Source: an archaeon
Lineage (GTDB): Archaea; Nanobdellota; Nanobdellia; SCGC-AAA011-G17; ARS1178
Assembly: GCA_002688325.1 (NCBI GenBank)
Contig: NZCS01000025.1
Span: forward strand, 1-37,062
DNA length: 37,062 nt
Reading direction: 5' to 3'
Part shown: piece after piece, positions 19,169 to 24,395 of the stretch
Layout: each line of letters begins with the position of its first letter
Position numbering within the stretch: position 1 is the stretch's first letter
Translations under genes and position numbers: made by a program
Notes under the pieces: generated by a model
The model's input: only the letters and a program-made list of their open reading frames with translations
What the model was told of the DNA's origin: nothing
The model's database searches: none

Positions 19169-19714
19169 ATGAGTAAAACAGAAGAAAATTTAAAAACAGC
19201 GTTTGCTGGTGAAAGTCAAGCAAGAAATAAATATGATTATTTTGCTAAGGTAGCTAAAGCAGAGGGTTATTTGTATATAGCTAAGATATTTGAAGAAACT
19301 GCTTTAAATGAGATGCAACATGCTAAAGAAGAGTTTAAATTAATGAAAGGTATAGGAGATACAAAAGATAATTTGAAAGCTGCTATTGCAGGAGAGCATT
19401 ATGAGAATTCTGAAATGTATCCTGGAATGGAGAAAGATGCTAAAGAAGAAGGTAATGAAGATGCAGAGAAATTGTTTAAAGAAATAGCTGAAGTTGAGAA
19501 AGAGCATGAGAAAAGATATAAAAAATTATTAGAAATGGTTGAGAAAGGTAGTGTATATAAGAGAAGTAAAAAAATAAGATGGAAATGTAGTAAATGTGGA
19601 TATATTACTGAAGGTAAGGAAGCAGTTGAAAGATGTCCTTCTTGTGATCATGAAAGAAAGTATTTTGAACCTGAGTGTATGTGCTTTGAAGAAGGATGTG
19701 AAATTTGTGGATAA
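19169..19714 (+). CDS. Rubrerythrin
   Basis: This 181-residue peroxide-reducing diiron protein begins with a ferritin-like four-helix domain. Iron ligands appear in AFAGESQARNKYD, FEETALNEMQHAKEE, AAIAGEHYENSEMYP and AEVEKEHEKRYKKLLE (E-x2-H pairs). The C-terminal rubredoxin-like site is WKCSKCGYI with RCPSCDHERKYFE. Beyond the usual end there is an extra Cys-rich tail, ECMCFEEGCEICG, with four more cysteines. It heads an oxidative-stress group with desulfoferrodoxin downstream. The strong ribosome-binding site and its own promoter suggest high expression. Confidence 0.95.
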   Translation: MSKTEENLKTAFAGESQARNKYDYFAKVAKAEGYLYIAKIFEETALNEMQHAKEEFKLMKGIGDTKDNLKAAIAGEHYENSEMYPGMEKDAKEEGNEDAEKLFKEIAEVEKEHEKRYKKLLEMVEKGSVYKRSKKIRWKCSKCGYITEGKEAVERCPSCDHERKYFEPECMCFEEGCEICG

Positions 19715-19754: not shown

Positions 19755-19880
19755 ATGAAAGAAAAAAAAGAATGTTTTGATTTTGGAGATAAGAAAATAT
19801 GTGAAGTTTGTAAGTGTGAAGGTGATAAATGCAAATGTGAGAAAAAAGAAGAGAAAAGGAGTTTCAAATGGCAAGAATAA
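19755..19880 (+). CDS. Small Cys-rich protein overlapping desulfoferrodoxin
   Basis: This 41-residue product has C7 and the cluster ICEVCKCEGDKCKC, six cysteines in all, with a charged remainder. It has a good GGAG ribosome-binding site, and its last 13 bases overlap the desulfoferrodoxin start in another frame, so translation of the two is likely coupled. It could carry a zinc or iron site, or deliver iron or electrons to its neighbours. No family is recognised. Confidence 0.5.
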   Translation: MKEKKECFDFGDKKICEVCKCEGDKCKCEKKEEKRSFKWQE

Positions 19881-20248
19881 ATGGAATTTATAAATGTAAT
19901 GTTTGTGGTAATGTAGTTGAAGTTTTAGAAGCTAAAAGTCCTGAAATTGTCTGTTGTAATGAGAATATGAAGTTATTTGAAGAGAAAACAGAAGAAGAAG
20001 GAACTGAAAAACATAAACCAATTTTAGAGATTGATGGTGAGAAAGTAAAAGTTAAAGTTGGAAGTGTAGAACATCCTATGGAAGATGAACATTGGATTGA
20101 ATTGATAGAGATCTTAGGAGATGGGAAGATAATTGCTAGTTCAAGACCTTATCCAGGAGAAAAACCAGAAGCTGAGTTTTGTTTGAGCAGTACAGAAGGT
20201 ATAAGTGCAAGAGCATTGTGTAATGTTCATGGTTTGTGGAAGAATTAA
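19868..20248 (+). CDS. Desulfoferrodoxin / superoxide reductase (two-iron class)
   Basis: This 126-residue enzyme reduces superoxide to peroxide without making oxygen. The N-terminal desulforedoxin site is CNVCGN with VCCNEN. The C-terminal catalytic site has EKHKP (Glu and His), VEHPMEDEHWIE with two histidines, and CNVHGLW with the axial Cys and last His. All four His and the Cys of center II are present. Rubrerythrin upstream would remove the peroxide formed. Electrons probably come from rubredoxin-type donors; a rubredoxin-fused enzyme lies next door. Confidence 0.96.
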   Translation: MARINGIYKCNVCGNVVEVLEAKSPEIVCCNENMKLFEEKTEEEGTEKHKPILEIDGEKVKVKVGSVEHPMEDEHWIELIEILGDGKIIASSRPYPGEKPEAEFCLSSTEGISARALCNVHGLWKN

Positions 20249-20249
20249 T

Positions 20250-20456
20250 TTATTTAAGTAATATTATTATTGCTAAAAATAAATGAGTAATGGCAAAGAT
20301 AGTTGCTAGATCTAAGGTTAATCTATGATGTTGTTTTAGAAAAGTTGAAAATGGTTTTAATCTTGTTGCCCAATGGATATTACAAGAAGGAATATGTAAT
20401 AAGATAAATAAACCTGCAATGATTGATGTGTAGAATTGAATTTGTTCTATAGTCAT
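20250..20456 (-). CDS. Two-helix membrane protein with R-L-K-x9-H-x13-H motif (candidate mini-cytochrome b)
   Basis: This 68-residue protein has helix 1 about 7-21, a loop HIPSCNIHWATRLKPFS, and helix 2 about 45-67. R32-L33-K34, H44 and H58 have exactly the same spacing as R35-L36-K37, H47 and H61 in the protein at 22708, and both have a Ser-Cys before them. H-x13-H on one helix is the spacing that carries two b hemes in cytochrome b. Its ATG overlaps the stop of the rubredoxin-TPP enzyme by 4 bases, so it probably receives that enzyme's electrons or anchors it. Heme binding is inference. Confidence 0.65.
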   Translation of the reverse strand: MTIEQIQFYTSIIAGLFILLHIPSCNIHWATRLKPFSTFLKQHHRLTLDLATIFAITHLFLAIIILLK

Positions 20457-22210
20457 ACTTTTTTTACTCCTCTAATCATTTTGTTTGGGTCAATCATGAT
20501 TTCTACTATTGTTGGTTTTTTTGATTGGAATGCTTTTTTTAAGATATTATTTAAGTTTTTAGGATTGATAACTCTGTAACCATCTCCACCACAAGATTTT
20601 GCAAATTCAGCAAAGTTTGGATTTGGAAATGAAACTCCAAATTCTGGATAACCATCTCTTATTTGTTCTTTTTTTATGTTTTTTAATTTTTCATCATTGA
20701 ATAGAATAACTTTTATTGGTAATTTTTCTCTAACTGCTGTTGTAAAATCTGCCATTAACATTCCAAAGCCACCATCTCCAGTTATACATATTACTTGTTT
20801 ATTTGGAAAATCTAATTGTGCTGATAGAGAAGCGGGAAGGGAGAATGCCATGCTTGCCATATTAGCTGACATGAATGTTTTTTGTCCTTCACAAATAAAT
20901 TTTTTGTAAAACCAAAAAGTATGATCTCCTACATCTACACAGATAATAGCATTTTTGTTAATATTATTTTTTAATGCTTGAATAACAAATCCTGGATTTA
21001 TTGGTGTTGAGAAATCTTTTGATTCTTTTTCAATTTCATTTAGATGTTCTTGTTTGTATTTGTTAATATTTTCAATGAATTTTTTATTTTCTTGTTTGTT
21101 AGATATTAAAGGTACTAATTTTTGTAATATTAAATCAGAATCCCCTAGTAATCCTGCGTCAACATTAAATGTTTTTCCTATTTTTAATGAATCATTATCT
21201 ATCTGAATTATTTTCATATTTGGAGGTACTAGATTAGCTTGTCTAAAACCAGAACCAATTATAATAATTAAATCAGAATCTGCAATAGATTTAGCTGCAT
21301 ATATTGATCCAATTGATCCTAAAACTCCTAAAGAATATTTGTATGTTTCATTGATAACTCCTTTTGCTCTTGAAGTTGTTGCTATTGGTGCTTTTAATTT
21401 TTGAGATAATTGTAATAATAATTTAGAAGAGTGTCTTGCTCCCCATCCTGCTAAAATTGTAATTTTATTGGAATTATTGATTAATTGTGCTGCTTTTTTG
21501 ATATTTTTGTTTGAAAATGTAGGATTTTGAAATATTTCTGGTTTGAATATTTTTTCTGGAAGATTTTCTGTAAGAATATCTGTTGGAGTACTTAGGACTG
21601 AAACTCCTGGTTTTTTATAAGCATTTTTAATTGCTGTTTTTGTTAATTTTAATGCTTGATTTGGTTTTGAAATAGTTTCTGCAAATTCTGTAAATGATTG
21701 AAATAGTTCTATTTGATCAATTTCTTGAAATGCTTCACTTCCTAAGTAAATTTCTGGTATTTGTCCTGCTAGGGCTAGAACTGGAGATCTATCTGTTGCT
21801 GCATCTACTAATCCTGTTATTAAATTAGTTGAACCTGGGCCTGCTATAGAAATACAAACTCCTAATGAATCTGTTATTTTTCCATGAGCTGAAGCCATAA
21901 AAGCTGCTGTTTCTTCATGTCTTGTTAAGATAAATTTGATTTTACTTCTTCTGATTGCATCTATTATAGGAAGATTAGATTCTCCTGGAATTCCATAAAT
22001 ATGTTTTACATTGAAAGCTTCTAGTTGTTTTACTATTTTATCTGCTACGTTTGTTGAGGTTTTTTGAGTAATTTTTGATAGTGGAACAAATGCTGATTTT
22101 GGTGCCCCACATACTGGACAAATATAAGAATCAGGTAATGAAGAAAATTTCTTTTTTTGTTTTGATTCATCATAAACCCAGTTACAGACAGTACATCTAA
22201 ATTTAGTCAT
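20453..22210 (-). CDS. Rubredoxin fused to a TPP-dependent enzyme (pyruvate oxidase/acetolactate synthase family)
   Basis: This 585-residue protein begins with a rubredoxin domain holding one iron through C6-x2-C9 and C31-x2-C34 (YICPVCGAPKSAF). A full thiamine-diphosphate enzyme follows from residue 55: IPGESNLPIID, the catalytic-type Glu in RHEETAAFMA (E99), GPGSTNLITGL, a central domain with ILAGWGARHSSK, and the C-terminal TPP site ITGDGGFGML with N in LFNDEKL. It resembles pyruvate oxidase and acetolactate synthase; which reaction it does is unclear. The rubredoxin implies one-electron transfer out of the active site, fitting a pyruvate:acceptor oxidase. It overlaps the two-helix membrane gene by 4 bases. 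Confidence 0.85.
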   Translation of the reverse strand: MTKFRCTVCNWVYDESKQKKKFSSLPDSYICPVCGAPKSAFVPLSKITQKTSTNVADKIVKQLEAFNVKHIYGIPGESNLPIIDAIRRSKIKFILTRHEETAAFMASAHGKITDSLGVCISIAGPGSTNLITGLVDAATDRSPVLALAGQIPEIYLGSEAFQEIDQIELFQSFTEFAETISKPNQALKLTKTAIKNAYKKPGVSVLSTPTDILTENLPEKIFKPEIFQNPTFSNKNIKKAAQLINNSNKITILAGWGARHSSKLLLQLSQKLKAPIATTSRAKGVINETYKYSLGVLGSIGSIYAAKSIADSDLIIIIGSGFRQANLVPPNMKIIQIDNDSLKIGKTFNVDAGLLGDSDLILQKLVPLISNKQENKKFIENINKYKQEHLNEIEKESKDFSTPINPGFVIQALKNNINKNAIICVDVGDHTFWFYKKFICEGQKTFMSANMASMAFSLPASLSAQLDFPNKQVICITGDGGFGMLMADFTTAVREKLPIKVILFNDEKLKNIKKEQIRDGYPEFGVSFPNPNFAEFAKSCGGDGYRVINPKNLNNILKKAFQSKKPTIVEIMIDPNKMIRGVKKV

Positions 22211-22291
22211 AATACACCTCTAAAATATATATTGTTTAAGATATATATAAGATTTACTTTTGAGAAACTATAATTTTATAAATGATAATTG

Positions 22292-22304
22292 TTTAACTGT
22301 TTAG
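22292..22304 (+). promoter_or_regulatory. TTTAACTGTTTAG motif over the likely start site of the CuA gene
   Basis: The motif lies about 14 bases after a TATA-like TTTTATAAAT (22273-22282) and just before the GAGGGTGA ribosome-binding site. It would cover the transcription start, a position suited to an operator. Confidence 0.45.
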
Positions 22305-22316
22305 AAAGAGGGTGAA

Positions 22317-22715
22317 ATGAAAAAAATATTATTAATTTTAGTGTTGTTGTTTTTTGTAGCTGGTTGTGGAGATATAAATGAAGGTTCTAATGAACCTAAT
22401 CAGAATTCTGATGTTCCTGATGTAAAAGATACTCAAGAAGTTAAAGAATTTGTAATGACAGCTAAACAATTTGATTTTGTTCCAGGAAGAATAACTGTTA
22501 ATAAAGGTGATAGAGTAAGATTAAAAATAACTAGCGTTGATGTGAAACATGGTTTTTCATTGTCAGAATTTGGGATTAATAGAGATTTGGAAGTTGATAA
22601 ACAAGAAGTTATTGAATTTGTAGCTGATAAAGTAGGAGAATTTAAATTTAGGTGTAGTGTGTTTTGTGGTTCTGGTCATGGTGGAATGGAAGGGGTGTTG
22701 ATTGTAAATGGTTGA
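22317..22715 (+). CDS. CuA-type cupredoxin lipoprotein
   Basis: This 132-residue protein has a lipoprotein signal peptide with lipobox VAGC near residue 17, an acidic linker, and a cytochrome-oxidase-subunit-II-like cupredoxin domain: FVMTAKQFDFVPGRITVNKG, HGFSLSEFG (first ligand His), and CSVFCGSGHGGM with C-x3-C-x3-H-x2-M, the binuclear CuA pattern. It is anchored outside the cell by its lipid. No oxidase subunit I or nitrous-oxide reductase is nearby. The gene overlaps the following two-helix membrane gene by 8 bases, so they likely work together. Copper content is inferred from ligands. Confidence 0.85.
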   Translation: MKKILLILVLLFFVAGCGDINEGSNEPNQNSDVPDVKDTQEVKEFVMTAKQFDFVPGRITVNKGDRVRLKITSVDVKHGFSLSEFGINRDLEVDKQEVIEFVADKVGEFKFRCSVFCGSGHGGMEGVLIVNG

Positions 22716-22938
22716 TCCTTTATTGGGAAGTAAGATTGTTTATGTTTTAGGTTTTGTTAATATTTTTGGTTTGTTATTGGTTTTGTTTTCGTGTAGATGT
22801 TTAGGTTTTAGATTAAAGATAGGTGCAAGTAAATTTTACAAATACCATTGTTATTATTGGTGGATATTTATTATTTCAGTTTTATTACATGCTTTGTTAG
22901 CATTTAATGTATTTGGAAATCCGTTTAAAGGAGGTTAA
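22708..22938 (+). CDS. Two-helix membrane protein with R-L-K-x9-H-x13-H motif, partner of CuA protein
   Basis: This 76-residue protein has helix 1 about 10-28, a cysteine-containing basic loop (SCRCLGFRLKIGASKFYKYH) and helix 2 about 50-67. R35-L36-K37, H47 and H61 match the motif of the protein at 20250 in order and spacing. Its start overlaps the CuA lipoprotein end by 8 bases. A homodimer would place four His on two helices, enough for two b-type hemes. This is a structural guess supported by the shared spacing and redox context. Confidence 0.65.
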   Translation: MVDPLLGSKIVYVLGFVNIFGLLLVLFSCRCLGFRLKIGASKFYKYHCYYWWIFIISVLLHALLAFNVFGNPFKGG

Positions 22939-22940
22939 AA

Positions 22941-22988
22941 ATGTGTGATACTTGTGGATGTGGAGAAAAAGAAGAAAAGGAGGATTGA
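22941..22988 (+). CDS. Micro-protein MCDTCGCGEKEEKED
   Basis: A 15-residue frame has three cysteines in CDTCGC and a good ribosome-binding site (GGAGG at 22930), and it ends two bases before the glutaredoxin ATG. The cysteine pattern and tight spacing argue for a translated peptide, perhaps a metal or thiol carrier, although it could act only as a leader. It is short, so support is limited. Confidence 0.4.
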   Translation: MCDTCGCGEKEEKED

Positions 22989-22990
22989 AA

Positions 22991-23227
22991 ATGAAGAAAA
23001 AAATATTAGTTTATAGTACACCTACTTGTCCTTGGTGTAATAAAGCTAAAGAATTTTTGAAAAAAAATAAAGTAGAATTTAAGGAAGTGGATGTAAGTAC
23101 AGATGAGAAGGGAGCTAAAGATATGATGGATAAATCTGGACAAATGGGAGTTCCTGTTATAGACATAGATGGAGAGATTATTGTTGGTTTTGATGAAAAG
23201 AAAATTAAGGTGGCTTTAGAGTCATAA
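22991..23227 (+). CDS. Glutaredoxin/NrdH-like thiol reductase
   Basis: This 78-residue thioredoxin-fold protein has the active site TPTCPWC (C13, C16), a cis-Pro loop GQMGVPVIDIDGEIIVGF and the standard beta-alpha order. I chose ATG 22991 rather than an upstream in-frame ATG at 22952, because AGGAGGATT gives an ideal ribosome-binding site and the fold starts at KKKILVYS. A thioredoxin-reductase-like gene follows about 260 bases later, making the two a probable reductase-substrate pair. Confidence 0.9.
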   Translation: MKKKILVYSTPTCPWCNKAKEFLKKNKVEFKEVDVSTDEKGAKDMMDKSGQMGVPVIDIDGEIIVGFDEKKIKVALES

Positions 23228-23489: not shown

Positions 23490-24395
23490 GTGGTAAATAT
23501 TTATGATGTTATAATATTAGGTAGTGGAGTTACTGGTTATTCTGCTGCTATATATTCTGCTAGATTTGGTTTAAAGACATTAGTAATTGGAACAAGATTT
23601 GGTGGTTTATTGCAAGATACTAATATTGTTGAAAATTATCCTGGTTATAAAAGTATTTCTGGTTTAGATTTAATGAAGAAATTTAAAGAACATGTTGAAG
23701 ATTATGATATAGATATGGTTGAAGATGAAGTTAAAGATGTTAAGAAAATAAAAAATTGTTTTAGTGTTAAAGGTAAGAAAAGTTATAAAGGTAAAACATT
23801 AATATTTGCAACTGGAAGTAAAAGAAGGAAGTTAGATGTTAAAGGTGTTGAAGAATTTGAAGGTAAAGGAGTAAGTTATTGTGCTTTATGTGATGGACCT
23901 TTGTTTAAAAATAAAACTGTTTGTGTTATTGGAGGTTCAGATTCTGCTGCAAAAGAAGCTTTGTTGTTATCAGAATATACAAAAAAAGTTTATATTATTT
24001 ATAGAAAAGAAAAAATAAGGGCTGAACCAATAAATTTAGAGAGAGTGAATAAGAGTAAGAAAATAGAAGTAATTAATAATACTAATATTGTTGAAGCTAA
24101 AGGTAGTAAGTTTGTTGAAAAAGTTGTTCTAGATAAGAATTTTAAGGGAAGTAAAGAGTTAAAATTGGATGCTATATTTATAGAAATAGGTCAGATTCCA
24201 GAAAGTGAATTAGCTAAGAAGTTAGGTGTTAAGTTGAATAAGAAAGGAGAGATAATCATAGATTGTGATTCAAGAACTAATGTAGAAGGAGTATGTGCTG
24301 CTGGTGATGTGGCTGATAAAGAATTTAAACAAGCAATTACTGGTGCTAGTGAAGGTGTTATAGCTGCATTTAATTTATATGAATATTTAAAATGA
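23490..24395 (+). CDS. trxB: Thioredoxin reductase-like flavoprotein
   Basis: This 301-residue FAD/NAD(P)H disulfide reductase has the FAD fold VIILGSGVTGYSAAIYSARF at the N-terminus, then ATGSKRRK, the redox-active SYCALCDGP (C131, C134), the nucleotide-binding VIGGSDSAAKEALLLS, and the C-terminal FAD motif GVCAAGDVADKEFKQAITGASEG. Start: GTG 23490 after AGAGG, because the fold begins at once and no ATG is in frame nearby. The last four bases overlap the NAD kinase gene, so supply of NADP and its use by this reductase may be coupled. The substrate is probably the glutaredoxin at 22991. Confidence 0.9.
   Translation: MVNIYDVIILGSGVTGYSAAIYSARFGLKTLVIGTRFGGLLQDTNIVENYPGYKSISGLDLMKKFKEHVEDYDIDMVEDEVKDVKKIKNCFSVKGKKSYKGKTLIFATGSKRRKLDVKGVEEFEGKGVSYCALCDGPLFKNKTVCVIGGSDSAAKEALLLSEYTKKVYIIYRKEKIRAEPINLERVNKSKKIEVINNTNIVEAKGSKFVEKVVLDKNFKGSKELKLDAIFIEIGQIPESELAKKLGVKLNKKGEIIIDCDSRTNVEGVCAAGDVADKEFKQAITGASEGVIAAFNLYEYLK

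Follow-up and report, generated by a model that had tools for sequence, protein, structure and literature searches.

Two small two-helix proteins, A and B, encoded in the window (the whole stretch of 37,062 nucleotides of archaeal DNA that was analysed), make promising, though unproven, candidates for a minimal electron wire across the membrane. It seems somewhat probable that both are minimal transmembrane electron carriers, with heme held by the paired His of a dimer. As contig 25, the window belongs to a genome of 606 kb, which is 72% complete, and the named relatives of the source genome are Woesearchaeota and Nanoarchaeia.

Both ORFs proposed in the first-pass annotation were confirmed. 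Protein A (68 aa, ILLHIPSCNIHWATRLKPFS...HHRLTLDLATIFAITH) is encoded at 20250..20456 on the minus strand and protein B (76 aa, FSCRC...YHCYYWWIFIISVLLH) at 22708..22938 on the plus strand. The gene of A ends a unit that begins on the same strand with a fusion gene, whose product has a rubredoxin (residues 3-41) ahead of a PoxB-like TPP enzyme (residues 54-575; 20453..22210, minus). The overlaps described for both small genes were also found: the start of A lies within the stop codon of the rubredoxin-TPP gene (ATGA, 20453-20456), and B overlaps 8 bases at the end (22708-22715) of the gene of a CuA-type cupredoxin lipoprotein (22317..22715, plus; COX2, Cupredoxin_1). As had been claimed, the two units diverge around an intergenic region of 106 bp (22211..22316). 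A palindromic TATA-like sequence within this region (TTTATAAA, 22275-22282) was dropped as a notable element, as it is statistically unremarkable there; it is a weak signal because TATA-like words are not enriched within the window. Downstream of B lie an ORF of 15 aa (MCDTCGCGEKEEKED, MCDTCGCG; 22941..22988, plus), preceded by GGAGG and with no counterpart in relatives beside B, a glutaredoxin of the YruB family (22991..23227, plus; TIGR02196 above cut-off) and a thioredoxin-reductase-like flavoprotein (23490..24395, plus; Pyr_redox_2). On the other side of the locus, rubrerythrin (19169..19714, plus; NF045767 above cut-off) and desulfoferrodoxin, a superoxide reductase (19868..20248, plus; TIGR00320 above cut-off), are encoded.

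Single-sequence searches with A or B gave no matches in 60 relatives, and homologs were reached only via the CuA neighbours and profiles. The CuA query detected orthologs in 48 of the 103 genomes of the order, and their flanks yielded B-like proteins in genomes G082 and G094. A profile built from four sequences led to further relatives in the order and the class, and when 378 genomes from the class were searched by profile, B-type and A-type proteins were recovered at E values of 1e-13 to 1e-36. A scan of 84,980 species yielded 8 B-type loci, every one labelled archaeal. The B-type alignment (A5) contained 18 rows, i.e. 17 members of the B-core and the G082 protein. The latter was rejected as a B-type, being closer to A/DUF4405 when compared with shuffles (14.9 and 18.1 bits, 0/300), which leaves the B-core at 17. 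The A-type alignment (A6) contained the three intact A-types, i.e. A itself and its relatives in G065 (56% identity) and G336. G177 carries a fourth, frame-shifted A copy, which was scored as decayed and stands outside the intact count. This copy (L118, 3978-4168) adjoins truB, and the rubredoxin-TPP gene of another genome, G217, is also found beside truB.

The pair H-x13-H, on which the first-pass annotation had rested its comparison with cytochrome b, is present in both proteins, as H44/H58 in A and H47/H61 in B. Both His and one Cys were invariant in all 17 B-type and all three intact A-type proteins, which come from many families; neither His was freely replaced, the sole exception being the frame-shifted G177 copy, in which the second is lost (His58 to Tyr). 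The A-types share five invariant positions, H21, C25, H28, H44 and H58 (3/3), where H44 (20325..20327, minus) is the predicted inner ligand and H58 (20283..20285, minus) the predicted outer one. In B, residues C29, H47 and H61 were invariant across all 18 rows. The B-core additionally keeps CRC, HC, W51 and SV ahead of H61 in 17/17 members; C29-R30-C31 (22792..22800, plus) lies at the inner end of TM1, H47-C48 (22846..22851, plus; H in 18/18 rows, C in 17/18) at the inner end of TM2, and H61 (22888..22890, plus; 18/18) near the outer end of TM2.

AlphaFold2 predicted a hairpin of two hydrophobic helices for A (pLDDT 73) and helices at residues 4-28 and 47-69 for B (pLDDT 88). On a 100-degree wheel the two His lie at 20 and 340 degrees and thus share one helix face, within 40 degrees of each other and about 21 Å apart along the helix (four turns). 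The conserved residues of B TM2, His excluded, are directed towards that face as well (joint p 0.004). The charge pattern placed the loop inside in 18/18 rows of A5 and in 3/3 A-types; the loop of A is rich in Lys/Arg, indicating the same orientation. Foldseek comparison of A and B with the PDB returned only generic helix hairpins, and profile searches of the PDB with both proteins gave no meaningful match. Of 29 further small two-helix ORFs at the retrieved loci, two contain a hydrophobic H-x13-H, and both of them adjoin redox genes.

The equal spacing that had been reported for A and B was found in part: RLK-x9-H is the same in both, but the distance from S-C to RLK is 6 residues in A and 5 in B. 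The RLK motif, whose conservation had been put up for testing, is kept in the A-types (RLKP) and missing from the other B-types. The shared motif was accordingly rejected as a signal and is regarded as coincidental. Nor do A and B form a general pair, as their co-occurrence was found in this genome only; they are separate families, each of which is also found alone, and the pairing is local to this genome. An obligate A/B heterodimer was dropped as well, the A-types in G065 and G336 and the B-types at 16 other loci being without a partner.

Comparison of A with DUF4405 by hhalign gave an E value of 2.2e-4 (probability 45, 55 columns) with both His matched, and all three A-types scored higher than 299-300 of 300 block shuffles. 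One of the three A-types matched the Pfam DUF4405 profile, at E 0.0067, under the curated cut-off. A can be described tentatively as a distant DUF4405-like protein, the similarity being weak but consistent. None of the 18 B rows matched the same profile, and with an hhalign E value of 0.019 and a shuffle test that was likewise not significant, DUF4405 membership of B was rejected. By these comparisons, B is a new DPANN family. Homology between A and B could not be demonstrated (hhalign E 0.2). This, together with three B loci that lie among housekeeping genes only, would fit a reading of A and B as small membrane proteins with no relation to each other and some other function, their His spacing being due to chance or helix packing. 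Such an explanation appears very improbable: the His pair is invariant, the redox linkage recurs, and in G033 a third, unrelated family with the same spacing is flanked by cupredoxin and rubredoxin-flavoprotein genes.

As electron carriers, A and B would each have both ends outside and the basic loop inside, and on a single side of TM2 one His would lie close to the inner membrane face and the other close to the outer one. A dimer would be a four-helix bundle whose two TM2 helices bind a pair of b-hemes, one in each leaflet, an arrangement modelled on cytochrome b and on the DUF4405-like FezC dimers. Electrons would come from the rubredoxin domain of the PoxB-like 2-oxoacid oxidising enzyme, presumably with pyruvate as substrate, or in the relatives from small rubredoxins supplied by flavin or thiol reductases, and would exit to a lipid-anchored copper protein outside the cell. 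The partner of A would be the rubredoxin-TPP enzyme, that of B the copper protein.

The rubredoxin-TPP protein (585 aa) matched Pfam PF00301, PF02776, PF00205 and PF02775. Its NCBIfam scores were under the equivalog cut-offs. The best PDB match of the TPP part was E. coli PoxB (3eya, E 4e-87); all three TPP-enzyme domains are present, and RHEE, with the catalytic Glu, and GDGG were aligned to PoxB. The alignment stops at PoxB residue 529 of 572, about 43 residues short, and only 10 residues follow. The C-terminal tail of PoxB is membrane-binding, and A may replace it, providing both membrane contact and electron uptake. Full-length rubredoxin-TPP enzymes were found in only 3 of the 378 genomes of the class. 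An A gene adjoins the enzyme gene in two of these, the present genome and G065, which represents a second family, and no A lies beside it in the third, G217. The two genes are head to tail here and tail to tail in G065, and adjacency despite the flipped gene argues for a functional link over inherited order.

The missing membrane-binding C-terminus would also suit A as a mere membrane anchor of the enzyme, within an ordinary cytosolic cluster for defence against oxygen and ROS, where the rubredoxin-TPP enzyme would reduce rubrerythrin and desulfoferrodoxin and B would anchor or fold the cupredoxin. Rubrerythrin, desulfoferrodoxin, glutaredoxin and thioredoxin reductase do flank the locus, and locus L102 carries the same gene set. 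However, five conserved His/Cys positions and a His pair on one face would be superfluous for anchoring, the cupredoxin has its own lipid anchor, and B is also found beside surface copper proteins at loci without rubrerythrin or desulfoferrodoxin. A pure defence cluster is therefore considered decidedly unlikely. In L102 the genes run Rbr-Rbr-Dfx-...-cupredoxin-B, and a two-helix protein of 58 aa (WHHIFGSIAIIIGIIHALYA, 2217-2393) was observed there directly after desulfoferrodoxin.

The CuA lipoprotein, the proposed acceptor of B, has its lipid Cys at position 17 and all of the Cu ligands (H78, C113, C117, H121 and M124), and it matched the CuA domain of cytochrome c oxidase subunit 2 in the PDB at E 1.5e-10. 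A cupredoxin was found within two genes of B at 10 of the 17 B-core loci; its lipoprotein gene directly adjoins B at nine, and at the tenth one small rubredoxin gene lies between. Since cupredoxins found with the CuA query number roughly one per genome, this adjacency is estimated to be far beyond chance. The copper proteins beside B vary, including CuA-like, plastocyanin-like and other types. Small rubredoxin genes lie near B at seven of the 17 loci and the FTR catalytic subunit at five, so that the B relatives are placed between genes of cytosolic rubredoxins or thiol reductases and those of surface cupredoxins. At an eleventh locus, L104 (3406-3989), B directly follows the genes of a cytochrome b5-like lipoprotein and of a genuine DUF4405 protein, an arrangement that resembles a heme/heme version of the B layout. 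Redox neighbours were absent at three of the 17 loci (L108, L115 and L116), where only housekeeping genes were found. The path formerly proposed, from rubredoxin through a two-helix protein to surface copper, is thus supported by gene neighbourhood, while a general A/B pairing is not supported.

Some further arrangements were observed at loci of the relatives. In G033 (contig C13; L165, 1691-3310), a cupredoxin, a two-helix H-x13-H protein of 68 aa and a fusion of rubredoxin with an iron-sulfur-flavoprotein-like domain are encoded in one operon; by profile, the 68-aa protein is of a third kind, unlike A and B. In G082 (L038, 4138-4987), the A/DUF4405-like two-helix protein, a CDGSH iron-sulfur protein and a CuA lipoprotein stand in a row. 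CuA orthologs without B often adjoin a four-helix membrane protein (L010, L011, L013, L015, L021 and L025), which we take to be DoxX-like, and the neighbour at L029 is presumably DUF2231-like; both kinds may be alternative membrane partners of CuA lipoproteins. A cytochrome-b-like membrane protein of about 480-500 aa matching DUF4405 was observed at L147, L149, L150 and L154-L164 and is common in genus f32/g83.

The conserved Cys residues of B (CRC and HC) are not accounted for by a heme, as bis-His ligation needs neither. The main rival for B is a thiol/metal site, in which C29-R30-C31 and H47-C48 would bind a metal or form a dithiol at the inner face. B would then be a relay and not a heme protein, taking electrons from glutaredoxin, thioredoxin or FTR, or delivering copper to the adjoining cupredoxin. 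The presence of CRC and HC in 17/17 B-core members fits this, as does the frequency of glutaredoxin, the FTR catalytic subunit and thioredoxin reductase among the neighbours of B, and B adjoins several cupredoxin types, as a copper supplier could. The outer-end H61 is, however, equally conserved, no Met/Cys path across the membrane was found in B, and A is without CxC. Against copper delivery, the rubredoxin and desulfoferrodoxin neighbours and the cytochrome b5 lipoprotein with DUF4405 at L104 point to electrons. On the whole, a thiol/metal relay is possible but rather unlikely.

The absence of a known terminal oxidase, claimed in the first-pass annotation, was borne out: none of 18 carriers, of which 14 have near-complete genomes, gave a COX1 match, against 8 of 14 control genomes. 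Rubredoxin has a potential near 0 mV and cupredoxin one above +200 mV, so that electron flow in the outward direction would be downhill. HemC was matched in 0 of 22 genomes carrying A/B or DUF4405 and in 11 controls. Without HemC, any heme would have to be imported. This absence fails to separate A and B from proven cytochrome families, because genuine DUF4405 carriers likewise are without HemC.

In favour of A and B as electron carriers are the invariance of His and Cys, the shared helix face, the loop-inside charge pattern, the gene linkage, the absence of COX1, the resemblance of A to DUF4405, a heme-b cytochrome, and the G033 operon with its unrelated H-x13-H protein between cupredoxin and rubredoxin-flavoprotein. 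Against it are the lack of HemC, the unexplained Cys of B, the topology, by charge inverted relative to DUF4405, the three redox-free B loci, the G217 enzyme without A, the absence of B-DUF4405 similarity and of a specific PDB match. The complete path, leading from 2-oxoacid oxidation through the fused rubredoxin, a 70-residue membrane protein and an oxidase-less CuA lipoprotein to an extracellular acceptor in the environment or a host, all in organisms without a respiratory chain, and with the B-types combining a new inner Cys-x-Cys/His-Cys cofactor site with the His pair, is unlikely to hold in every part. In many DPANN genomes, CuA or blue-copper proteins of the cell surface are encoded, but neither an oxidase nor a described electron donor accompanies them. 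With the B family there is a testable membrane partner for these proteins, and with the unit of A and the rubredoxin-TPP enzyme a testable electron source. If the proposal is true, A and B would count as some of the smallest natural transmembrane electron carriers, and heme-auxotrophic archaea with small genomes would pass electrons to the outside with no oxidase.

Searches of openly licensed papers yielded no description of the B family, of its rubredoxin/cupredoxin setting or of the rubredoxin-TPP fusion. Among known systems, cytochrome b/b6 of bc complexes has H-x13-H in each ligand helix and two hemes in a four-helix bundle. These proteins are multi-helix, either large or split, and have quinone sites, whereas A and B have one ligand helix in 68-76 aa, and neither matched cytochrome b/b6 in Pfam. 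In contrast to E. coli PoxB, the window enzyme has an added N-terminal rubredoxin and no C-terminal membrane-binding tail, and is followed by the gene of A. The lipoprotein has its CuA ligands in common with cytochrome c oxidase subunit II, but the COX1 partner is missing in the carriers. The DUF4405 proteins (PF14358) resemble A and B as small two-helix units with H-x13-H in the second helix; they differ in an additional His after the second ligand, missing in A and B, and, within the same class, in a topology by charge with the ends inside instead of the loop. Both DUF4405 and FezC, a DUF4405-like ferrosome cytochrome whose modelled heme sites require homodimerisation, bind heme b in vitro, as shown for FezC by spectra (PMC11334425), so that membrane proteins of this kind are already known, and the two form the closest precedent for A and B. 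FezC, likened here to A and B by its published description, is bacterial and belongs to the iron context of the ferrosome; the accessible portion of that paper describes no rubredoxin or cupredoxin partners (PMC11334425). A DPANN survey reports 'nosZ-like' CuA proteins that share the site C-x3-C-x3-H with the window lipoprotein and likewise occur without CuZ or an oxidase in the genome; the portion of the survey available names no membrane donor, whereas here B overlaps the lipoprotein gene (PMC10936187). A de novo diheme membrane cytochrome, as far as its published description was available, embodies the same idea of a minimal four-helix diheme protein, but is designed and not natural (PMC10120048).
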